A stretch of DNA of 64,000 nt, from positions 21,784 to 85,783 of the forward strand of contig JAFPWD010000023.1 of NCBI GenBank assembly GCA_017395105.1, read 5' to 3'. Source of the DNA: Clostridia bacterium. Its GTDB lineage: Bacteria > Bacillota > Clostridia > Christensenellales > CAG-138. Position numbers and translations under genes: made by a program. The notes under the pieces are model-generated. The model made no database searches. It was not told where the DNA came from and was given only the letters and a program-made list of their open reading frames with translations. This document shows, piece after piece, positions 5,059 through 59,959 of this stretch. Every line of letters begins with the position of its first letter. Positions within the stretch are counted from its first letter, which is position 1.

Positions 5059-6939
5059 TTATTGTTGATCCCCACCGCTCTCGCGTTCGGTTGAGCCGCG
5101 CTTTTTTCTGTTGCGCGCGTTCACGGTTATGATGGTGGCCGCGCAGGCGATCGCAACGAGCGCTGCCGCGCCGAGAACGAGCATTATCGTCCTTGCGGAG
5201 CTGCCCGAAGCGCCATCGTTCTTGGATGCTTCAGCTTCAGTGGGAGCTGCAGTGGGAGCCGCCGTGTTCTCCACGCCGTTTGCACCGTCACCGGACGGTG
5301 CGGGCGGGTTGCCCCAGCCGGAGCCTCCGGGAGACTGCGCCTCCGTTGCGGCCTGCGCTGTGGCGATCTCGGCTCCGTTCACAACGAGGGAGTAGGTCTC
5401 GCCCTTCGCAAGCTCGGGGCTGCTGAACATAACGAAGCTTGCGCTTCTCTTTGCCGTAACCGAGTAAACCGTTTTTCCGTTTGCATCCTTTATCGATACC
5501 TCATCGCCCTCTGCTATGTTCAGCATCGAGCCGTTATTCGGATCAAACGGAGGCTGCATTCCATTGCCGTTTGGATCGAACGGAGGCTGCATCATATTGC
5601 CGTTTTCATCGGTCGGCGGGGGCAATACATTACCGTTTTCATCCGTCGGCAGGGGCGGCGGCATACCGGGACCACCGGGACCACCGGGACCTCCGGGACC
5701 ACCGGGACCACCGGGACCACCGGGACCTCCGGGACCACCGGGACCACCCGGGCCTCCGGGACCACCCGGGCCTCCGGGACCTCCGGGACCACCGGGGCCC
5801 ATGCCGCCGCGGCCGAAGTAAACATAGGCCTGCTCAACGCTTGAGGGCAGACTGCCCATGCCGGGCATGCCGATCCCGAACACGGTGCCGCCCGAAAGGC
5901 TGATAACGCCGTCCGCATCGAACGGTGAATTATCGTGCCTTGTGCTCGAGTACACCTCAAGCTCGGTGCCTGCGAAGTTGATCTTGCCGTTTGAGTCGAT
6001 GCCGTCGCCGGTGGTGGTGTTGATAACGACCTTGCCGCCGTAGAAATTGCAGGCGAAGCTGTAGCCTACAAGATCGCCGTTTGCAATGTTGATACCGTCA
6101 TCGATGGAGTTGACGGTTATATTGCCGGAGTATACGTTCAGCGTTGCCGCCTCGATACCCTCGTTGCTTGAAACTATGTTTATATTCGGCCCCTCTCCGT
6201 TCTCGGTGCCGATATTCAGGGTGTAGTCGGATTTTAACGCATCGTCCGCAGCTTCTATCGTGATATTTCCGCTCTCCATATTCAGCAGAGTGTCCGCTTT
6301 AAGCGCATCGTTGACGTTCGCCTTGATATTGAGCGTCAGCTCACGCACCGTGAGGCTCGATTCGCCCTCAAGCTCGGTGCTCAAGCCGCCCTTGATGCCG
6401 TTCTTGCCGTTTGCGTTGATGTTCAGCGTGCCCTCGCCCTCGATAACAACGTTTGAGCCGTCCTTACATTTGATGACCGCGTTCTCCGCATCGAGATTGT
6501 CGGTATTGGTCTCACTGTTGTTTCGCTCGGTGTCGGACAGGGTGTTCACCGTGCCTGCAGAAACGATGATCGTTACCTCGGTGGTCTTGCCGCAGAGTAT
6601 CGGCGAGGTGTTCTCGCTTGCAAGAGTAAGGCCGTCGAGCACGAGCACAACGCCCTTGGTGTCCTTCTTGACCTTTACCGATGCATCGGCACTTTCGCCG
6701 CGCAGCACGTAGGTGCCGGCCTGATCGATATTGACCAAGTTTGCTTCAACGGAACAGCCCGCGTATTTGCCCACGGTAAGCTCTATCCCGCTTTCTGAGA
6801 AGTCGATTACTGTTGCACCGCTCATATCGGCCTGCGGTGCTGTCTGCGCGCTTGCTTTTCGAGTGATAAACGGTACTGCCGCAATTGCGAGGGAGAGCAT
6901 TACCGCAAGCGCTCTTCGAAAAAGCTTTGCTGTTTTCAT
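5059..6939 (-). CDS. Secreted Cthe_2159-type beta-helix (carbohydrate-binding domain) protein with Gly-Gly-Pro tract
   Basis: The start at 6939 is preferred over 6954 because GGAGG lies eight bases before it. An N-terminal signal peptide ([15 protein letters not shown], cleavage near ASAQ) and a C-terminal membrane segment ([20 protein letters not shown]) followed by RNRKKR predict export and anchoring. The middle (about 40-390) has repeats typical of the Cthe_2159/DUF4353 parallel beta-helix family: [42 protein letters not shown]. One founding member binds polygalacturonate. A run of 15 near-identical 9-bp units codes a Gly-Gly-Pro tract. Divergent from the two-component system at 7139, a common neighbour for this family. 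Ligand unknown. Confidence 0.85.
5666..5800. repeat. 15 tandem 9-bp units encoding Gly-Gly-Pro
   Basis: Fifteen consecutive 9-base units of the form CCGGGACCA/T (plus-strand sense) fill 135 bases inside the beta-helix gene. All are in frame, so gain or loss of units changes the protein length without a frameshift. Third-position variants (CCCGGGCCT) occur in units 10 and 12. Confidence 0.95.
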
Positions 6940-7138: not shown

Positions 7139-7813
7139 ATGCAGATCTTGGTCGTTGAGGATGAGCTTTCGCTTGCGAGAGCTATCAAAAAAATACTTGA
7201 GCAGCATGGTTTTTTTGTGGACACCGTGCATGATGGGCTGTCCGCGATCGACTACGCCAAGGGCGTGGAATACAACCTTATAATACTCGACGTTATGCTG
7301 CCCAAGCTCGACGGCTTCGAGGTTGTTCGCATTCTGAGGAAGGACGGCGTAAACACCCCCATACTCATGCTTACTGCGCGCACCGCCACCGCCGATAAGG
7401 TGAGCGGGCTAAACAAGGGCGCGGACGACTACATGACCAAGCCCTTCGACACCGACGAGCTGCTCGCAAGGGTGGGCGCTCTGACGAGGCGGCGCGGCGA
7501 GGTGATGGTGAACGAGGTCAAATACTCCGACCTCTCGCTCAATCTTCAATCCGCCATGCTGAAGCGCGAGCATGAATCCGTTCAGCTGAGCCACAAGGAA
7601 TTCGAGGTGGTGCGAACCTTCCTTTCCAACCCCACCATGACCGTGCCTACCGAAACGCTTATCAACAACGCATGGGGCATGGACTCCGAGGCCACGGACA
7701 ACAACGTGGAGGTCTATATCTCCTTCATAAGAAAGAAGCTGAAATACCTTAAATCGAACGTTACCATCAAGAAGATCCAGAAGATCGGCTACCGTTTGGA
7801 GGTGGGTGAATGA
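7139..7813 (+). CDS. OmpR/PhoB-family response regulator
   Basis: A 224-residue two-domain regulator. The receiver domain has acidic pair E7/D8, phospho-acceptor D51 in IILDVMLP, T79/A80 and K101 in MTKPF. The winged-helix DNA-binding domain covers about 125-224 (LSHKEFEVVRTFLSNP, NNVEVYISFIRKKL, IQKIGYRLE). It overlaps the downstream kinase gene by an ATGA junction, so the two are co-translated. A TATAAT at 7092-7097 is a likely -10. It is divergent from the beta-helix gene, which it may control; that link is inference from position only. Confidence 0.96.
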   Translation: MQILVVEDELSLARAIKKILEQHGFFVDTVHDGLSAIDYAKGVEYNLIILDVMLPKLDGFEVVRILRKDGVNTPILMLTARTATADKVSGLNKGADDYMTKPFDTDELLARVGALTRRRGEVMVNEVKYSDLSLNLQSAMLKREHESVQLSHKEFEVVRTFLSNPTMTVPTETLINNAWGMDSEATDNNVEVYISFIRKKLKYLKSNVTIKKIQKIGYRLEVGE

Positions 7814-51978: not shown

Positions 51979-53495
51979 ATGATTATCCGATAAAAACCGA
52001 TAAGCGCATAGCGATCGACGCAAATCCTTACCGCACCCGCGCCGTGCTCGTTGAAAACGGGAAGGTGGTTGAGATCTTCTCGGAGCAGCAGAGCCGCGAA
52101 AGCCTGCTCGGAAGCATCTACCGCGGCAGGGTATGCTCCGTTCTGCCCGGAATGAGCGCGGCTTTTATCGATATCGGCGCCGAGAAGAACGCCTTTTTCA
52201 GCATAGCCGATATGGACTCCCCCGCCGCTCCCGGCGCGGATATAGTGCAAGGCGGCAAGGGCGCTCCCGATACGCGCAGCGGGGCAGGGAAAAAGCCCCG
52301 GAGCGCGCTCAAGGTCGGTCAGGAAATAATGGTTCAGGTCGTCAAGGATGCGCAGGGCAGCAAGGCGGCAAGGGTCAGCACGCGCATATCGCTCTCGGGG
52401 CATCTGATCGTTATGTTCCCCGATTCGGAGCTTATCGGCATAAGCAAGCATATCACGGCGGATGAGGATAGGGAACGGCTCAGAACGCTCATCGCCGAAA
52501 ACAAGGGCGAGGGCTTCGGCGTTATCGTTCGCACCGCCGCCGCTGCAAGGCCGAACGAGGACATTATTTCGGAGCTTGAGCAGCTCAAGGCAAGGTGGAG
52601 CGGCATTCAAAACGCCTTTAAGATCAGCGCGGCTCCCAAATGCCTTTTCAGCGAGGACGGGCTCGTTGAGAGAACGCTGCGCGACCTTTTCAGGCCGGAC
52701 GTTTCGCGCGTTACGGTCAACGACAGGGAGCGCTATCTTTCGATACTCGCGCTTGCAAACGAGCTTGAGCCGGGCGCAGCCGAGAAGGTGCATTTTGCCG
52801 AGAACGCGCCCGATCTTTTCGAGCAGCTCGGAATAGAGAAGCAGATCGACGAGGCGCTGTCAAGGCGGGTTTGGCTCAAGAGCGGCGCATACATAGTGCT
52901 CGATCAAACCGAGGCGCTTTTGAGCATAGACGTGAACTCGGGCAAGAATATCGGCCGAAGCGACCTTCGCGCAACGGCGCTCGCCACCAACTGCGAGGCG
53001 GCCAAGGAGATCGCGCGGCAGCTTCGGCTTCGCAACATCGGCGGCATAGTTATAATCGATTTTATCGACCTTGAGAGCCCCGAGGATAAGCAGACCGTTG
53101 TCAAAACGCTTAAGGAGGCGCTTGAAAGCGACCGCACCACCGCGCTTGTGCACGGCATGACCACGCTTGGCCTTGTTGAAGTAACGCGCAAAAAGCTGCG
53201 CGAAAACCTCTCCTCCTCCATGCAGCGGGAATGCTTCCTCTGCGGCGGCAGCGGCAGGCTCTGCACTCCCGAGACCGTTGCCCTTCGCATTCGCGCCCGC
53301 GCACTCGCCCGCCTCTTTGATTCAGGCGCGAATCGCATCTCCATCAGCGCGCATCCATCCGTTATCGCGCTTATAAAAAAGCATCTCAACGAGGAAAAGC
53401 TGCGAAACGGCTTTGAGCAGGTTGATGTCGTGCTGAACGAGCTTCGAGGCTCCGCACCCGATGAATTCGAGGTGCGGCTTATGGAAAACCGGTAA
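51975..53495 (+). CDS. Ribonuclease E/G
   Basis: 506 residues. N-terminal S1 domain (GSIYRGRVCSVLPGMSAAFI, DIGAEKNAFF) and the RNase E/G catalytic core with the Mg-binding Asp motif SIDVNSGKN (about 318) and IIDFIDLESPED (about 360). The Zn-link Cys pair CFLCGGSGR is present near 425. Single-strand endonuclease for rRNA maturation and mRNA decay. Third gene of the coupled TIGR03960-TIGR03936 set, the usual clostridial arrangement, but here not followed by rplU and rpmA. Confidence 0.95.
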   Translation: MNDYPIKTDKRIAIDANPYRTRAVLVENGKVVEIFSEQQSRESLLGSIYRGRVCSVLPGMSAAFIDIGAEKNAFFSIADMDSPAAPGADIVQGGKGAPDTRSGAGKKPRSALKVGQEIMVQVVKDAQGSKAARVSTRISLSGHLIVMFPDSELIGISKHITADEDRERLRTLIAENKGEGFGVIVRTAAAARPNEDIISELEQLKARWSGIQNAFKISAAPKCLFSEDGLVERTLRDLFRPDVSRVTVNDRERYLSILALANELEPGAAEKVHFAENAPDLFEQLGIEKQIDEALSRRVWLKSGAYIVLDQTEALLSIDVNSGKNIGRSDLRATALATNCEAAKEIARQLRLRNIGGIVIIDFIDLESPEDKQTVVKTLKEALESDRTTALVHGMTTLGLVEVTRKKLRENLSSSMQRECFLCGGSGRLCTPETVALRIRARALARLFDSGANRISISAHPSVIALIKKHLNEEKLRNGFEQVDVVLNELRGSAPDEFEVRLMENR

Positions 53496-53504
53496 ACGGT
53501 AAAA

Positions 53505-53526
53505 AGTGAATAGTGAATAGTTGAGG
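53505..53526. repeat. Dispersed AGTGAATAGTGAAT-type repeat, copy 3
   Basis: AGTGAATAGTGAATAGTTGA ten bases after the RNase E/G stop; same family as copies at 12436, 27990 and 61437. Confidence 0.6.
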
Positions 53527-53604
53527 AAGAAATTCCTGCGGAATTTCTCAGGATTTTCTTTTGATCGTGTAAAGTAAAATAAAATTTAAGAAAGGGTTCT
53601 GTAA

Positions 53605-54396
53605 GTGACAGTTAAAAAGAAAGGGTTTGCTATCGTATTGCGCATATTTTTGATAATTTTCGGCGCTGCGCTCGTTTTCGAGGGCATCATCGCCTCCACC
53701 ATGCGAAACTTCAATCTCGGCATCCTGATGCCGATCGTCATAGGCGCTCCGCTGGTGCTTCTCGGCATTTTCTATACGCCGATCACTCGCTTTTTCGAGG
53801 CTTCGACCTTCGGCAAAATAATAAAATGGGGCTTTATCTCCACATACGCGCTGTTTGCGCTTCTTTTCTCTTTCACCACCGTGCTTATCCTTAAAAACGC
53901 TGCCATGCCTAAGGATAAAAAGGCGGATGCCGTTATCGTTCTGGGCGCGGCGGTGCGCGGCAGCACGCCGTCCGTTCAGCTTGCGTTCAGGCTCGAGCGT
54001 GCGCTCGAATACCACCGCGAAAACCCCGATGCCGTTATCGTGGTCAGCGGCGGGCAGGGACACGACGAAGCCTATCCCGAGGCGGAGGTCATGAAAAAAT
54101 GGCTCGTTGCCCGCGGCATTCCCGAGGAAAGTATAATCGAGGAGCTTCAAGCCACCAGCACCGAGGAGAATTTCCTTTTTTCAAAGGCGCTTATCGACAA
54201 AGCGCTCGGCGGCACGGAGCACGAGATCGCATTCGTTACGAACCGATTCCACGTTTTCCGCTCGGAGCGGATAGCGAAAAAACTCGACATAGATGCCTTC
54301 GGCATCGCGGCAAGCGAGTTCAAGCCCACGCTTTTAAACGATTACCTGCGCGAATGCGCCGCCATTGTGCAGTATTTTTTGAGCGGCAAACTATAA
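53605..54396 (+). CDS. YdcF-like (DUF218) membrane protein
   Basis: 263 residues from a GTG start (GAAAGGG upstream). Two or three membrane helices occupy the first 95 residues, then a DUF218 domain with ADAVIVLGAAVRGSTPSVQL, VVSGGQGHDEAYPEAEVMK and SIIEELQATSTEENFLFSKA. Members act on cell-envelope precursors or vancomycin resistance (SanA/ElyC-like), but the substrate is unresolved. A terminator follows at 54402 before the retron island. Confidence 0.9.
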   Translation: MTVKKKGFAIVLRIFLIIFGAALVFEGIIASTMRNFNLGILMPIVIGAPLVLLGIFYTPITRFFEASTFGKIIKWGFISTYALFALLFSFTTVLILKNAAMPKDKKADAVIVLGAAVRGSTPSVQLAFRLERALEYHRENPDAVIVVSGGQGHDEAYPEAEVMKKWLVARGIPEESIIEELQATSTEENFLFSKALIDKALGGTEHEIAFVTNRFHVFRSERIAKKLDIDAFGIAASEFKPTLLNDYLRECAAIVQYFLSGKL

Positions 54397-54401
54397 TACA
54401 A

Positions 54402-54437
54402 AGCCCGATCGCGCCATGCGCCGCGGTCGGGCTTTTT
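54402..54437 (+). terminator. Terminator of the ydcF-like gene
   Basis: AGCCCGA pairs with TCGGGCT, with further inner GC pairing, followed by TTTTTCGC. Confidence 0.85.
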
Positions 54438-54455
54438 CGCATACATCGAAGGCAA

Positions 54456-54492
54456 GGGCGAAACAGCACGGCTCCGTCCCTGCTTTTCGCCC
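54456..54492. repeat. Hairpin at the left edge of the retron island
   Basis: GGGCGAAACAG pairs with CTGCTTTTCGCCC with a two-base bulge. The right arm forms the first bases of the 18-bp direct repeat. It may be the recognition site where the island inserted. Confidence 0.55.
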
Positions 54493-54499
54493 GAATTTA
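54482..54499. repeat. 18-bp direct repeat, left boundary of retron island
   Basis: GCTTTTCGCCCGAATTTA, identical to 57010-57027. The pair encloses the IS30 remnant and the whole retron. Confidence 0.9.
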
Positions 54500-54551
54500 G
54501 GTAATCGGAAATGTCGCTCTGCCGCAGGTCGGCTATGAACAAAAGTTGTGA

Positions 54552-54735
54552 ATTGAAAGATTTCGAGTAGTGTTCAAAACGATAACCTACGATAACGGAT
54601 CACAAACGGCTGAAAAAATCGCTAAGCGGCAGCAGAAGGTTCGAAGTTTATTACTCTCATCCGTGTAGCGCGCAGGAGATGGGTAAAATGAAAACGCCAA
54701 TAAAGTGATACTCCATTTCATGCCAGTCAAAGAAG
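54552..54735 (+). pseudogene. IS30-family transposase remnant
   Basis: The frame from 54552 reads FKTITYDNGSQTAEKIAK, the DDE region of IS30 transposases. After one frame change FEVYYSHPCSAQEMG continues the YSHPYSSWERG motif, and after another NENANKVILHFMPVKEVIS matches TNENxN-xxRxxxPKG. At least two frameshifts are needed and start and end are missing, so it is dead. Recognisable sequence may continue to about 54865. No inverted repeats were identified. Confidence 0.75.
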
Positions 54736-54867
54736 TGATATCGGCAGGTTTACTCACAAGCAGCTCGAGAGGGGGCTGCACTGAATGATTATTCAAGAGT
54801 GCTCCTAGGAGGATGCCTAATTGTTGTGCTTTTAAGTGGTGGACAGTTAAAACTGCAATTTACATTC

Positions 54868-54896
54868 TTGAAAAACACCTTATTTTGGTGTATAAT
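54868..54896 (+). promoter_or_regulatory. Promoter of the retron
   Basis: TTGAAA and TATAAT are 17 bases apart; transcription would start near 54903, about 23 bases before the a1 arm of the msr-msd RNA. Confidence 0.85.
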
Positions 54897-54925
54897 AGTT
54901 AAGCAGGATATCGGCCTGCGATTTC

Positions 54926-55073
54926 AAACGTGCGGCAAGATTTTGTACTTGTGTCTCGCAAGTATTGACGAAAACGGTAGGAGGACTAGCGCCTTCACAT
55001 TACTGGTATTGCATTGGATTGCATTGCATTGAGGTGCGATTCGACTGCGCGCGGAATGAGTTGCCGCACGTTT
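54926..55073 (+). ncRNA. Retron msr-msd RNA (Ec67-like)
   Basis: The 148-base RNA is closed by a 13-bp perfect inverted repeat: a1 AAACGTGCGGCAA (54926-54938) and a2 TTGCCGCACGTTT (55061-55073). The base after a1, G at 54939 in AAGATTTTG, is the predicted branching guanosine. The msr has stem TACTTG/CAAGTA (54946-54964, 7-nt loop) and GGAGG/CCTTC (54980-54996). The msd template (about 54997-55060) has CATT/AATG at its base and GTGCG/CGCGC near the tip. Layout and short motifs (GGCA-GATTT, AGGAGGA) resemble, from memory, the Ec67 (Eco2) msr. It ends 17 bases before the RT start. Confidence 0.88.
55008..55032. repeat. Five 5-bp ATTGN units in the msd
   Basis: ATTGC, ATTGG, ATTGC, ATTGC, ATTGA follow without gaps inside the predicted reverse-transcribed part, so the msDNA would carry CAATG-type repeats. 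Confidence 0.85.
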
Positions 55074-55090
55074 TCTTGGAGCTTATAGCA

Positions 55091-56764
55091 ATGAAAAAGT
55101 TTAATGAAATACAATCGCGAAATGATTTTGCAGACCTTTTAAAAATTCCTCTGAGTTCACTTACCTATCTTCTCTATGTATTGAAACCAGATAATTGCTA
55201 TAATGTGTTTTCGATTCCCAAACGGAGCGGAGGAGAACGTGAAATCAGCGCCCCAAACAAACGTTTGAAGAGCGTTCAAACAGCTGTTGCTATGGAGCTT
55301 TGGAGGTATATCAAGAACATACCTGACTTCAATCGTTCTGCAGTTTCTCACGCCTTTACAAAGAAAAAGGGGATAATTACAAATGCAGCAATACATCGCA
55401 ATAAGCGCATAGTGGTTAGCTTTGACTTAAACGACTTTTTTCCCTCTATCCATTTTGGACGAGTTGTCGGATTCTTTGAAAAGAATCGTCATTTCAAATT
55501 ACCGCATGCTGTATCTCTGATTATTGCTCAGATTGCATGCCACAATGGTAGCCTGCCTCAGGGTTCTCCGTGTTCGCCAATAATATCGAATTTAATTTGC
55601 CAAATCCTGGATTACAGAATACTGAGGCTAGCAAAAAAGTATAAACTTGATTATACAAGATATGCGGATGATTTGACTTTTTCAACAAACTGGAAAGGTT
55701 TTGTTGATGCTGAAACTTGTTTCTATTCAGATTTGAGTGTCCTAATAAGCAAAGCCGGTTTCACAATTAATGAAGCAAAAACCCGAACTGTTTTTCGCAA
55801 TTCACGTCAAACCGTAACTGGCATAGTTGTTAATAAAAAGCTGAATATAAATCGTGAGTATTATAAAGAGACCAAAGCTATGGCACACAATCTCTATTCA
55901 AAAGGATCGTTTGTTATAAACGGGAAAGAAGGAACCATTAACCAATTAGAAGGAAGATTTGCATTTATCGATCAAATAGAACTTTATAACAATCGGATTG
56001 ACGGAAACAGGCACAATTACAGGAACCTCTGTGGAAGGGAACTAGAGTATCGCAAGTTCTTGTTTTATAAATATTTCTATGCTGCAGATAAACCTACTCT
56101 TATTACGGAGGGCAAATCCGACGAACTTTATATTAAAGCCGCACTAAGGAAGATGTTTTTAATGTATCCATCTCTGATTAATAAAAAAGCTGATGGTAGA
56201 TTTGAATACAAAGTACGCTTCCTTAAACGTTCAAAACGTTTACAATACTTTTTTGGTTTTAGCCCGACTGGAGCTGATGCTATGACAGAACTCAGAAAGT
56301 GTTTTATTGACGAATCGAACAGCACGAGCCTTTTTAGCTTCTTTAATCGAATCTGCGCAAGCGGTCAAATTCATCCCGTAATTTTTATTTTTGATAATGA
56401 GACTGAACGAGACAAACCCCTCAAAAAGTTCCTAAATCAAAAGCCCGCAACAAGCGAAGTTGATAAAGAGTTCTTGCAAAACAATTTGTATTTAAATATT
56501 ATAAAAGGTTCAAAACTCTTTATTATTACGAATAAATTGGTTTCAGGTAAATCCGAGGCTGAAATAGAAGATTTATTTTCGGAGAATACACTATCAACTG
56601 AGATAGGAGGAAAATCATTTTGCAGGAAAGATAACTTTGACGAATCCAAATTCTACGGAAAGGCCTTTTTCTCTAAATATATATATAAGAATTATGAATC
56701 TATCGATTTTTCTAATTTTATCCCAATGCTTGATGCATTAAACAACATAATAACGACGTATTAA
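55091..56764 (+). CDS. Retron reverse transcriptase fused to TOPRIM-like domain
   Basis: 557 residues from the ATG at 55091 (TTGGAG nine bases upstream). RT motifs in order: retron-specific NAAIH (98-102), FDLNDFFPSI (111-120), QGSPCSPIISN (157-167), catalytic YADD (191-194) and VTG (242-244), the retron motif Y. After about residue 330 a TOPRIM-like effector follows: LITEGKSDELYIKAAL (337-351) and IFIFDNETERD (431-441) carry the Glu and acidic motifs. RT-TOPRIM fusion is the architecture of Ec67/Eco2 (type I-C as I recall). The gene is markedly AT-richer than all neighbours, indicating transfer. Predicted role: anti-phage defence by making msDNA that holds the effector inactive. Confidence 0.95.
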   Translation: MKKFNEIQSRNDFADLLKIPLSSLTYLLYVLKPDNCYNVFSIPKRSGGEREISAPNKRLKSVQTAVAMELWRYIKNIPDFNRSAVSHAFTKKKGIITNAAIHRNKRIVVSFDLNDFFPSIHFGRVVGFFEKNRHFKLPHAVSLIIAQIACHNGSLPQGSPCSPIISNLICQILDYRILRLAKKYKLDYTRYADDLTFSTNWKGFVDAETCFYSDLSVLISKAGFTINEAKTRTVFRNSRQTVTGIVVNKKLNINREYYKETKAMAHNLYSKGSFVINGKEGTINQLEGRFAFIDQIELYNNRIDGNRHNYRNLCGRELEYRKFLFYKYFYAADKPTLITEGKSDELYIKAALRKMFLMYPSLINKKADGRFEYKVRFLKRSKRLQYFFGFSPTGADAMTELRKCFIDESNSTSLFSFFNRICASGQIHPVIFIFDNETERDKPLKKFLNQKPATSEVDKEFLQNNLYLNIIKGSKLFIITNKLVSGKSEAEIEDLFSENTLSTEIGGKSFCRKDNFDESKFYGKAFFSKYIYKNYESIDFSNFIPMLDALNNIITTY

Positions 56765-57009
56765 ATGTCAGCATAAAAACGAATAACTATTATGCACATT
56801 TATACTTTGTATAAGCGATAAGTTCAAGCAAAATCACACAAATTGATACGCCGATTCGTCCCAACTTGTTCGGGTATTATGAGGTTCAATCACAGAGAGA
56901 TATGGACTACATTTCGCTGAATGAACGATTATTATTTAACAATCCTCGATGGTTTGGCCACCAAACTGGCGCTTCTTTCATATAGGGAGGGCATTAAAAG
57001 TTACAATTG
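56765..57009. other. Gene-free right part of the retron island
   Basis: AT-rich; the longest plausible frame is 29 codons starting MDYISLNERL and is not recognised. No terminator with a strong stem was found directly after the RT. Together with the repeat and promoter below it fills the 56765-57099 gap. Confidence 0.5.
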
Positions 57010-57027
57010 GCTTTTCGCCCGAATTTA
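57010..57027. repeat. 18-bp direct repeat, right boundary of retron island
   Basis: Perfect copy of 54482-54499. It ends 12 bases before the -35 of the ABC exporter gene; the left-arm hairpin sequence is absent on this side. Confidence 0.9.
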
Positions 57028-57067
57028 CCATGGTATATTTGATTTTTTCATTCCCATGGTATATAAT
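57028..57067 (+). promoter_or_regulatory. Promoter and repeated operator of the ABC exporter
   Basis: TTGATT (57039-57044) and TATAAT (57062-57067) are 17 bases apart. CCATGGTATAT occurs at 57028-57038 and 57054-57064, flanking the -35 and overlapping the -10; the first copy lies in the palindrome TACCATGGTA. Two such sites suggest repressor binding. Confidence 0.7.
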
Positions 57068-57099
57068 AAAGGTTGATTTTGTTTAACGAGGATTCGCTT

Positions 57100-58875
57100 A
57101 TGAAAAAAAAGGACACGCCCGAGCATTCCGAAAAACCGAAGGAAAAGCCCGGCATACTGAAAAAAATCATAATCAAGCAAAAGGAAGGCACCCTCGGCGA
57201 AACCATCAGGGATTGGCGGTGGATATTTCAGTACACAAAGAAATACCGCTGGTACGTCGTGGTGCAGACCATATTCGGCGTTATCGGCTCAACGATGGGT
57301 CTTTTATCCTCCATCCTCAGCAAATACACGGTCGATATCGTCACCGGCAAAAAAACCGATTATATCGTATTCATTGCGGTGTCCATGGTCGTCAGCGCCA
57401 TACTCGGCATGCTGTTTTCAAGCATCCAGTCCAGGATATCCACCAAGATCAGCCTGCGCGTTTTCAATGACATCCGCGCCGAGGTATACGAAAGGCTGCT
57501 CGACGGCGAATGGCAGCATGTGCGCGGCTATCAAACGGGTGATATAATAAACCGACTCAACAACGACACCAATCGAATAGCAAGCATCGCCATAAGCTGG
57601 ATACCTTCCGTTATCGTAACGTTTTATTCCTTCGTTTCGTCATTCGTTGCGATGCTGTACTTCAACGCAAGCGTTGCGTTGATCGCGCTGCTCGGCGCGC
57701 CTCTGCTTGCCGGTGCAAGCAGCATCCTGCTGAAAAAATCACGCTACTACAATCGCTTAGTGTTTGAAAAGCAGAGCAGCATTCTGAACTTTGAATCCGA
57801 AACCTTCCATAACTACGACACCGTAAAGAGCCTTGGAGCGACCAGAGCCTTTTCCAAGCTTTTTGTAAACAGGCAGGAGGAGCATAAGGCGGCTTCGCTC
57901 GATGCAAATTTGTTCTCCATCCGTTCCAAGATATTTCTCTCCGTCGTGGGGCATCTCGTTTCCTATGCGGCGTTTGGCTACTGCCTGTTTCTGCTTTGGT
58001 CAAACCAGATAACCTACGGCACGATGACCTTCTTCCTTAACCAAAGATCGAAGGTCACCAGCGGCTTCAATTCGCTTCTTGGCATACTCCCCCAGATGGT
58101 GCAGAGCGCCGTTTCCGCAAAGCGTGTGCGCGAATTCTTCCTGATCCCCTCGGAGAAGCACTATCTCTCCGAGCGCGAGCTTACCGAGCTCACAAGGCCC
58201 CCCGTTACGGTTCGTCTCAGCGGCGTGGACTTCGGCTATGACGACGGAAAAACCGTCCTCAGCTCCGCCGACTTTTTGGCGCAGCCCGGCGAGATAATCG
58301 CCGTTATCGGCGCAAGCGGTCAGGGCAAGACCACGCTGTTAAGGCTGCTTTTGAGCCTTGTTTCCCCGCAAAAGGGCAAGGCTGAATTCATAGATTCAAA
58401 GGGCTATGCGCATGTACTCGAAGCGGATCACCGCAGGCTGTTTTCCTACGTTCCGCAGGGCAATACCATGGTTTCCGGCACGATAGCCGACAACCTTCGC
58501 GTTACAAACGAGAATGCCACCGAGGAGCAGATGATGCATGCCCTTGAATGCGCCTGCGCAACGGAATTCGTTGAAAACAAGGGCGGGCTTGAAGGCATGA
58601 TCGGTGAAAGAGGACACGGCATCAGCGAGGGTCAGGCTCAGCGTATAGCCATAGCGCGCGCGATCCTGCGCGATGCGCCCATACTGATGCTCGATGAGGC
58701 CACCAGCAGCCTCGATGCCGATACCGAGCAGAAGATAATAAACAACATTATTACGCGCAATCCGAACAAGACCTGCATCATTTCCACGCACCGCACCAGC
58801 GCGCTTGCGCTTGCCGATCGGATCTACCGCGTTTCGGATGAGAGAATAAGCATCGTGTCCCTCGATGAGGTCTAA
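57100..58875 (+). CDS. ABC transporter, fused permease and ATPase
   Basis: 591 residues; the start at 57100 follows GAGGATTCG. Membrane domain with six helices (about 45-320), then a nucleotide-binding domain: Walker A GASGQGKTTLL, signature GISEGQAQRIAIARA (variant of LSGGQ), Walker B ILMLDEATSSLD, His in IISTHR. A half-exporter that works as homo- or heterodimer; one only is present, so a homodimer is likely. Substrate unknown. The signature is degenerate (ISEGQ), which may lower ATPase activity or suit a heterodimer. Confidence 0.93.
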   Translation: MKKKDTPEHSEKPKEKPGILKKIIIKQKEGTLGETIRDWRWIFQYTKKYRWYVVVQTIFGVIGSTMGLLSSILSKYTVDIVTGKKTDYIVFIAVSMVVSAILGMLFSSIQSRISTKISLRVFNDIRAEVYERLLDGEWQHVRGYQTGDIINRLNNDTNRIASIAISWIPSVIVTFYSFVSSFVAMLYFNASVALIALLGAPLLAGASSILLKKSRYYNRLVFEKQSSILNFESETFHNYDTVKSLGATRAFSKLFVNRQEEHKAASLDANLFSIRSKIFLSVVGHLVSYAAFGYCLFLLWSNQITYGTMTFFLNQRSKVTSGFNSLLGILPQMVQSAVSAKRVREFFLIPSEKHYLSERELTELTRPPVTVRLSGVDFGYDDGKTVLSSADFLAQPGEIIAVIGASGQGKTTLLRLLLSLVSPQKGKAEFIDSKGYAHVLEADHRRLFSYVPQGNTMVSGTIADNLRVTNENATEEQMMHALECACATEFVENKGGLEGMIGERGHGISEGQAQRIAIARAILRDAPILMLDEATSSLDADTEQKIINNIITRNPNKTCIISTHRTSALALADRIYRVSDERISIVSLDEV

Positions 58876-58909
58876 TGACATAGCGGAGGCATAAGCAGTT
58901 AAATTTAAA

Positions 58910-59959
58910 ATGAAATGCACAAATAAAAAAATGATGAATATTATTAAAAAAGGAGCGGCCGCGCTGGCCGCTTCTTCGGCGGCGCTCGCGCTTTTTCTAA
59001 CTGCCGCGTGCTCCGGCGATAATCCCGTAAAGCCCGGCAATATAGTGGAGGTGGACTCCCCCGCTCCCAGCGCGAACTCGGAAGCCGCTTCCGCCGTGCC
59101 CACGGCCGAACCTACGCCCGCTTTGTATACCTATGCCGCTATTTTCGATAATTCGGACATAGGCCGCGGGCAGTACGTGCTTGTGAACTACAACCATTTG
59201 TACGCGCACACCGGCGATGCGGAGAAGCTGGTTAAGCCAGTTAAAAAATCGAAGGAGCTTCTGCTCGCCAAATCCGATCTTGCACTGCTTAATGAGGTGA
59301 ACTCCGCGCTGCAAGCCTTTGCCGAGGGCTTCTATGAGGCCACGGGCGGCGATCGGCTGCTCGTTACGAGCGCGTTCCGCACCGAGCAGTATCAGCGCGA
59401 GCTTTACGACGACTACGTCAAGCAGCACGGCGAGGAGATGGCGCGCATCTACGTTGCCGATCCCGGCGCAAGCGAGCACCACACCGGCCTTGCCGTCGAT
59501 CTTTCCACCATGAGCAAGGACGGCCTGCGCATCCCGCTGATCGAGCATGAAAAATTCGAATGGGTGACCTCTCATTGCGCCGACTACGGCTTCATCCTGC
59601 GCTATCCCGTGGGCTCTGAGGAGACCACCCGCGTGGCCTACGAGCCCTGGCATTTCCGCTATCTCGGCAGCCCCCACGCCCATGCCGTGACCGCGCTCGA
59701 TATGGTCTACGAGGAATATATCGAGCATCTCAAGGTCTACACCGTCGAAAGCGGCATGCTTCACCTTGATATCACCGAAGGCGGTGCCGAGGTTTCGGTC
59801 GCAAGCATCGATGCTCTGCCCGATTCGGGCTATCTCATCTACTTCGTTCCCGCATCCGAAAGCGATGAAACCGCGATCCCCGTGCCTGTCGGCTGCGATA
59901 GTTACGAGGTTTCCGGCAACAATGAGGACGGCTTCACAGTGACCGTTCCTCTCGGATGA
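58910..59959 (+). CDS. VanY-like D-alanyl-D-alanine carboxypeptidase lipoprotein
   Basis: 349 residues. Signal peptide with lipobox LFLTAAC (about 24-30) predicts a membrane-anchored lipoprotein, followed by a Ser/Ala/Pro linker. The M15B (VanY) domain has zinc and catalytic motifs SAFRTEQYQRELYDDYV, SEHHTGLAVDLS and EPWHFRYLG. Trims the terminal D-Ala of peptidoglycan stems. An extra 70-residue C-terminal beta region follows. No strong ribosome site lies directly before the first ATG; a second Met at 58931 is possible. 34 bases after the ABC exporter. Confidence 0.92.
   Translation: MKCTNKKMMNIIKKGAAALAASSAALALFLTAACSGDNPVKPGNIVEVDSPAPSANSEAASAVPTAEPTPALYTYAAIFDNSDIGRGQYVLVNYNHLYAHTGDAEKLVKPVKKSKELLLAKSDLALLNEVNSALQAFAEGFYEATGGDRLLVTSAFRTEQYQRELYDDYVKQHGEEMARIYVADPGASEHHTGLAVDLSTMSKDGLRIPLIEHEKFEWVTSHCADYGFILRYPVGSEETTRVAYEPWHFRYLGSPHAHAVTALDMVYEEYIEHLKVYTVESGMLHLDITEGGAEVSVASIDALPDSGYLIYFVPASESDETAIPVPVGCDSYEVSGNNEDGFTVTVPLG

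Follow-up and report, generated by a model that had tools for sequence, protein, structure and literature searches.

A very probable complete type I-C retron with a fused TOPRIM effector, set in an AT-rich island between IS30-family remnants of a Clostridia bacterium

Retrons are small bacterial immune units that are thought to restrain a built-in nuclease by means of a DNA-RNA hybrid. The locus described here lies within a 64,000-nt stretch of DNA from a Clostridia bacterium (the window) and raises the question of whether a promoter, a non-coding RNA and a reverse transcriptase (RT) gene found side by side form such a unit, to which type it belongs and how it reached its present site. Our analysis indicates that the locus is very probably a complete type I-C (Ec67/Eco2-type) retron, with a mechanism that we infer from Eco2, residing in an AT-rich island between remnants of IS30-family insertion sequences (IS). 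The features are collected in Table 1; the coordinates given in the original prediction were correct.

Table 1. Features of the retron locus and its borders (window positions).
Feature	Position	Strand	Basis or detail
Left copy, 18-bp perfect direct repeat GCTTTTCGCCCGAATTTA	54482..54499	.	exact repeat search
Left decayed IS30-family remnant	54500..54864	+	transposase part, tblastn 54537-54725, internal stops; IS right end pattern 54841-54861
Sigma-70-like promoter of retron	54868..54896	+	TTGAAA-17-TATAAT, 11/12 consensus bases
msr-msd non-coding RNA	54926..55073	+	model match 54922-55077, 108.5 bits; fold; covariation
a1 arm	54926..54938	+	inverted repeat; covariation
Predicted branching G (place of Eco2 rG15)	54939	+	RNA alignment and Eco2 layout (sections of PMC12405507)
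msr stem-loop (RSL)	54945..54965	+	9 bp, 3-nt loop; fold and covariation
Predicted msd template	54976..55059	+	about 84 nt; comparison with Ec67 msDNA
a2 arm	55061..55073	+	inverted repeat; covariation
RT-TOPRIM fusion	55091..56764	+	ATG start, 557 aa; profile and structure-sequence matches
TOPRIM effector part	56081..56761	+	about aa 331-557: E340, D344, D435, E437, E491, E493, K524; Eco2 alignment
Right decayed IS30-family remnant and IS right end	56780..57009	+	tblastn 56780-56980, two internal stops
Right copy, 18-bp direct repeat	57010..57027	.	exact repeat search
Promoter-like site before ABC transporter gene	57039..57067	+	-10 box starts 52 nt past right IS end

The type of the retron was assigned from its protein. 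The 557-residue product was matched best by PADLOC RT-Toprim_I-C (E 2.9e-230), with four of the PADLOC I-C models covering residue 2 or 3 to 557 at 545-764 bits, and scored 624 bits on the NCBIfam model retron_Ec67_fus against a cut-off of 450. The nearest solved structures were those of Retron-Eco2 (PDB 9lm3 and 9i2f; E 2.5e-102 over residues 8-553). Pfam models passed their cut-off for the RT part only, and the group II intron RT model reached 56 bits against its own cut-off of 300. The motifs NAAIH, YADD and VTG were located at residues 98-102, 191-194 and 242-244, respectively, with N98, H102, Y191-D194 and V242-G244 invariant across 28 aligned sequences, and the segments LITEGKSD and IFDNETERD were both found in the C-terminal part. 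In a residue alignment with Eco2 (42 sequences, including some fragments and L040, which matches the family over its RT part only), F46, H281, E374, D378, D460, E515 and K546 of Eco2 had as their window counterparts F40, H266, E340, D344, D435, E493 and K524. A lysine at position 562 has been given as catalytic in Eco2 (sections of PMC12405507); residue 562 of the Eco2 sequence is D by our count, and we used the conserved K546 (37 of 42 sequences) in its place. As judged from these alignments, the protein is an RT that carries YADD, NAXXH and VTG and groups with retron RTs, and it bears at its C-terminus a fused TOPRIM effector of the type I-C/Ec67 kind. The RT motifs and most of the TOPRIM catalytic residues are retained, the active-site residues E340, D344, D435, E493 and K524 among them. 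The retron-specific RT motifs, the TOPRIM-like segments and the Ec67/Eco2 architecture proposed for this protein were thereby borne out.

The position of this protein among its relatives was examined by database scans and by phylogeny. A scan of genome contigs identified 35 loci, titled Bacillota in 28 cases, Alphaproteobacteria in 6 and Bacteroidota in 1. Across 61 genomes (the window's own and those of its relatives), the family was detected in 6 at E up to 0.001, with near full-length matches restricted to G000, G005 and G022; a weak second match was present in the window's own genome (G000:C17, 19 bits). A scan of IMG/VR with the RT yielded no confirmed relative. Among 22 aligned Bacillota rows of RT-Toprim_I-C proteins (PADLOC PDLC02964/02967; NCBIfam NF038237), 18 were 47-53% identical to the window protein and four outliers (three Streptococcus, one Apilactobacillus) were 40-45% identical. 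These Bacillota retrons share with the window the family of the non-coding RNA and, for the most part, a short loop and a DxE motif (see below), whereas their msd sequence and place in the genome are unlike those of the window. When 42 RT parts were placed in a tree, the window grouped with L059 (same genus), L070, L001, L002 and L009 at a support of 97/94, forming a mostly clostridial set of six rows among many Bacillota rows. Left out beforehand were L012, L024, L032, L033, L034 and L072 (fragments or broken frames), and L027 and L035, with no usable frame, also stood outside the tree. Eco2 was placed elsewhere, with L071. A clade uniting the window, Eco2 and other proteobacterial-type rows was disfavored, although short of a firm rejection (log-likelihood lower by 33.7; p-AU 0.064).

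The RT tree was built of retron-type RTs only and therefore provides no test against other RT classes. An alternative is that the protein belongs to a different retron RT class (e.g., RT-TIR XII or RT-protease XI) and has acquired a swapped C-terminal part. On the RT-TIR_XII and RT-Protease_XI models the RT part alone scored well, surpassing the scores given by two of six I-C models (residues 11-555, 292-297 bits), with RT-TIR_XII the best of the other-class models (310.7 bits, best stretch residues 2-270). In the tree, RTs matched over the RT part alone were also nested close to Eco2, and monophyly of all 35 RT-Toprim rows was neither found nor rejected (p-AU 0.45). By contrast, the end-to-end span of four I-C models, at scores well above the 310.7 bits reached elsewhere, leaves this alternative a very small chance. 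The window retron is a new member of the already known type I-C, Gram-positive members of which are already in databases and in print. The branch had been described in the original prediction as an under-described Gram-positive one; a mostly clostridial set is indeed seen among the Bacillota rows, but besides the PADLOC and NCBIfam models, a 'retron Ec67 family' annotation is already found on plasmids of Enterococcus, Staphylococcus and Lactiplantibacillus, and Ec67/retron-TOPRIM has been reported in 15372 S. aureus strains (in the sections available of PMC8765062). In the open-licence literature searched, no bench test of a Gram-positive RT-TOPRIM retron was found. Two of the relatives have neighbors worth recording. 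L070 (MT836041.1, 13.6 kb, from human faeces) is named Bacteriophage sp. and carries a close RT-Toprim retron; neighboring frames resemble, by eye, genes for a conjugation ATPase, a cell-wall hydrolase and a large serine recombinase, and the record could perhaps represent a conjugative element instead of a phage. In L001, a frame at 1308-2216 next to the retron resembles by eye a CRISPR Cas7-type gene, making a defence cluster possible.

A retron also requires an msr-msd RNA, and the region directly upstream of the RT gene was analyzed for conserved structure. The a1 and a2 arms form a perfect 13-bp inverted repeat, and the RNA of 54926-55080 folded at -56.2 kcal/mol (z -3.5), a value that none of 200 shuffles equaled. 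Covariation was assessed over 22 named pairs in 24 aligned RNAs, comprising the window and 23 relatives taken from upstream of RT genes. By this approach, 91% of cells were found to pair, and two-sided changes were detected in 17 of the 22 pairs (11 of 13 in the a1/a2 stem and 6 of 9 in the msr stem). In controls, none of 500 shuffles attained any of five measures, and slid versions paired in 26-51% of cells. Rfam gave no family at gathering score in the window and none in 54400-57100 at E up to 1; the RNA was therefore modelled in this analysis. The resulting model, R1, built from the aligned RNAs, returned 41 matches in 51 sources, the window included. Of these, 39 had E-values no worse than 1.6e-6 and came from 39 different sources, each directly upstream of an RT gene; the only two others were weak (E 0.55 and 0.65). 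Fifteen of the 39 lay outside the building set, corresponding to 13 distinct loci (L004, L020-L023, L029, L030, L032, L059, L070, L071, L073 and L074) after removal of L060, which duplicates L001, and of L072, whose score and place equal those of L071. The 12 sources in which R1 had no match were L027 and L033-L035 (without the N-terminus), L040-L043 (partial) and L054-L057 (fetched for the ABC transporter). Over the 61 genomes, R1 detected the three with full-length retrons and gave one weak match in G040 (E 0.06). The predicted msd was placed with the help of the ends of Ec67 msDNA; as a lone DNA strand, it did not fold with unusual stability (z +0.56; 144 of 200 shuffles as good). Taken together, the fold and the covariation confirmed the predicted msr-msd RNA with its 13-bp stem, and the comparative evidence indicates that an RNA under structural constraint lies directly upstream of the RT gene.

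We next turned to the DNA around the retron. Windows over the retron had a G+C content of 0.30-0.43 and those of the flanks 0.43-0.60, with 18 of 27 flank windows at 0.53 or above, such that the host may be called GC-rich, as had been proposed, in a relative sense only. A DUF218 gene borders the island on one side and an ABC transporter gene on the other. In the sister genome G008, the flanks are matched at 92% (52501-54395) and 97% (57022-59500) with 29 nt between them and the island missing; this empty site therefore reflects either insertion in the genome of the window or loss in G008. The two copies of the 18-bp repeat at the outer borders were the only exact matches to it in the 1.9-Mb (68% complete) assembly. 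Between repeat and retron lies one IS remnant on each side, both in the same direction; the left remnant stops a few bases before the retron promoter and the right one where the right repeat starts. An open relative in the same genome, L096, matched the IS30 transposase model NF033563 (217 bits against a cut-off of 80), and the two remnants matched the L096 transposase by tblastn (E 1.7e-11 and 2.5e-8). By sequence homology, the flanking remnants are members of the IS30 family. The whole is a 2.5-kb unit in which a retron of about 1.9 kb stands between two decayed and cut IS30-family copies.

Decay of both IS copies raises the possibility that the retron left among these dead remnants is itself inactive or dying, and the promoter is relevant to this point. 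The TTGAAA-17-TATAAT site was the top scorer of 10 promoter-like sites in 54300-57150; such sites were no commoner there than in shuffles (10 vs 7.7, sd 3.2), and the retron promoter is therefore plausible rather than proven. In 24 of 34 relatives, the best -10 box ends 4-7 nt ahead of a1, compared to 29 nt here. The promoter claimed for this retron accordingly stands as a near-consensus site but is unusual in its placement, and the original promoter may therefore have been lost. This spacing and the internal stops in both remnants speak for a dying retron. By contrast, the 557-aa frame is open with its RT motifs and most of its TOPRIM key residues kept, and the a1/a2 stem is perfect over 13 bp, unlike the decayed IS pieces alongside. 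We consider a dying retron improbable and continue with the complete type I-C retron as the preferred reading.

A compound-element origin of the island is likely, and the retron may have been delivered as IS30 cargo. A precedent is the IS30-family composite Tn6330 (ISApl1-mcr-1-ISApl1), which, as described in sections of PMC5821093, likewise holds its cargo between two IS30-family copies (about 2.6 kb vs about 1.9 kb here) and generates 2-bp duplications. The window differs from Tn6330 in that its IS copies are decayed and cut, its border repeat is 18 bp instead of 2 bp, and the cargo role is one that we infer. In a genome of the same genus, L112 (reverse strand) was observed to contain a cut IS30 unit of about 545 nt that ends at the IS right end and is bordered by a 12-13-bp duplication, longer than the 2 bp of ISApl1 (PMC5821093, in part) and to be compared with 18 bp in the window; no clear border duplication was detected in 8 other loci scanned. 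The retron of G005, also of the same genus, sits elsewhere (L059), between direct repeats of about 124 bp (5101-5224 and 7479-7602) whose sequence repeats the 5' end of a MATE transporter gene and which are identical at 92 of 96 positions in the core. Since this site differs, no single common insertion route is seen. The notion that RT-Toprim retrons generally lie between direct repeats was dropped: flanks that did not belong together gave matches of up to 15 bp, and of 33 loci only two exceeded this length, the window with 18 bp and G005 with 29 exact bp within its repeats of about 124 bp, followed by L070 at 14 bp.

The right end of the IS30-family element was used as a search pattern to examine where such elements insert. 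The pattern was found at 18 sites in 7 of 11 genomes of the genus and, with these included, at 30 sites in 9 of 103 genomes of the family. Distance was taken from the pattern to the first base of the -10 box in the best -35/-10 pair within the next 95 nt. By this measure, the -10 box was 51-54 nt downstream at 25 of 31 sites (window 57010-57067; L112-L128; L132-L143), consisting of 13 of 17 genus sites (without the left copy in the window), 11 of 12 further family sites and the right copy in the window. At this spacing, the IS end would lie close to where bound RNA polymerase reaches furthest upstream. Outside this range were the window left copy (29 nt), L113 (36 nt), L116 (48 nt) and L142 (47 nt), with L117 and L126 having no promoter. 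In the strict form of the rule (9 of 12 bases, offset 51-53), 20 of 31 sites qualified, compared to 452 of 192734 control positions (0.23%). The rule was first noticed on 12 copies, and the 12 further family sites served as a check, of which 6 obeyed the strict form and four of the remaining six scored just 8. A hypothetical -10 box 5 nt before a1, as in many relatives, would place the left copy at 53 nt too; the bases at that place are now CCTGCG, which is not a -10 box.

The idea that such promoter spacing is wholly unheard of was rejected, as TnGBS/ISLre2 and ISKra4-group elements, which have Mutator-like transposases, are known to insert at a fixed distance ahead of sigma-A promoters (sections of PMC3942029; cited in PMC10433421). 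These elements differ from IS30 in transposase family, and TnGBS inserts 15-17 bp before the -35 box (PMC3942029, same sections), whereas the IS30-family end described here lies about 27-29 nt before it. No report of a promoter-distance rule for IS30-family elements was found in the literature searched. If the retron was cargo, insertion at a fixed distance from promoters would mean that a defence unit was delivered to transcribed intergenic sites.

Finally, the window was compared with Retron-Eco2 (Ec67) of E. coli. The two have in common a non-coding RNA before a single RT-TOPRIM gene, an a1/a2 stem, one msr stem-loop with a 3-nt loop, a G after a1 and the YADD, NAXXH and VTG motifs (Eco2 layout from sections of PMC12405507). 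They differ in the predicted msd, which is about 84 nt in the window and 67 nt in Eco2 (PMC12405507, same sections), and at two TOPRIM metal-site positions. Eco2 D462 corresponds to E437 of the window, changing DxD to DxE (E in 28, D in 12 and a gap in 2 of the 42 sequences), and Eco2 S513 corresponds to E491 (E in 16, D in 17, S in 3, other residues in 3 and a gap in 3). In addition, the trimer-interface loop of Eco2 (residues 328-342), which includes R332, is absent from the window. The place of D331-R332-Y333 was a gap in 32 of 42 sequences, window included, and R332 itself was restricted to Eco2, L071 and L072; the loop is thus a feature of Eco2 and does not define type I-C. In four streptococcal RT-Toprim proteins (L020-L023), a long insert was observed where Eco2 has this loop. 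With the loop missing and the D462 and S513 positions changed, assembly and chemistry may differ from those of Eco2. The R332A substitution abolished defence by Eco2 (sections of PMC12405507), yet the aligned RNAs keep the msr stem-loop; in the branch of the window, any assembly may therefore depend on the msr RNA without the R332 loop.

By analogy with Eco2, the RT would prime from the 2'-OH of G54939 and reverse-transcribe the msd, leaving about 84 nt of DNA attached to the msr RNA. This hybrid would bind the RT part and keep the fused TOPRIM nuclease shut, within an oligomer that is perhaps bridged by RNA as in Eco2. A phage factor may then strip the msDNA and free the TOPRIM part; for Eco2, the trigger is hinted at by escaper phages carrying denB mutations, and the freed TOPRIM part is an RNase (both from sections of PMC12405507), with tRNA named as its target in the available part of a second paper (PMC12956279). 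The freed TOPRIM part of the window protein would likewise cut RNA, such that phage growth stops and the cell is sacrificed. The fuller proposal, in which a compound IS30-family element with promoter-guided insertion carries the retron as cargo and the branch of this retron assembles via the msr RNA without the Eco2 loop, is put forward tentatively and is on balance doubtful.

As a clean clostridial-type member, this retron can be used along with its relatives to judge which elements of the Eco2 mechanism may hold generally. The msr stem-loop is kept, as is most of the active site, but the R332 loop is not, which makes it testable what holds the complex together. In its flanks, the unit shows itself to be a bare 2.5-kb insertion, and these flanks pointed to an IS30-family element that seemingly obeys a promoter-distance rule known so far, in the literature searched, for Mutator-like transposons (sections of PMC3942029). 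Two aspects of this retron merit a second look: its insertion context and the lack of the R332 loop in most of the family.
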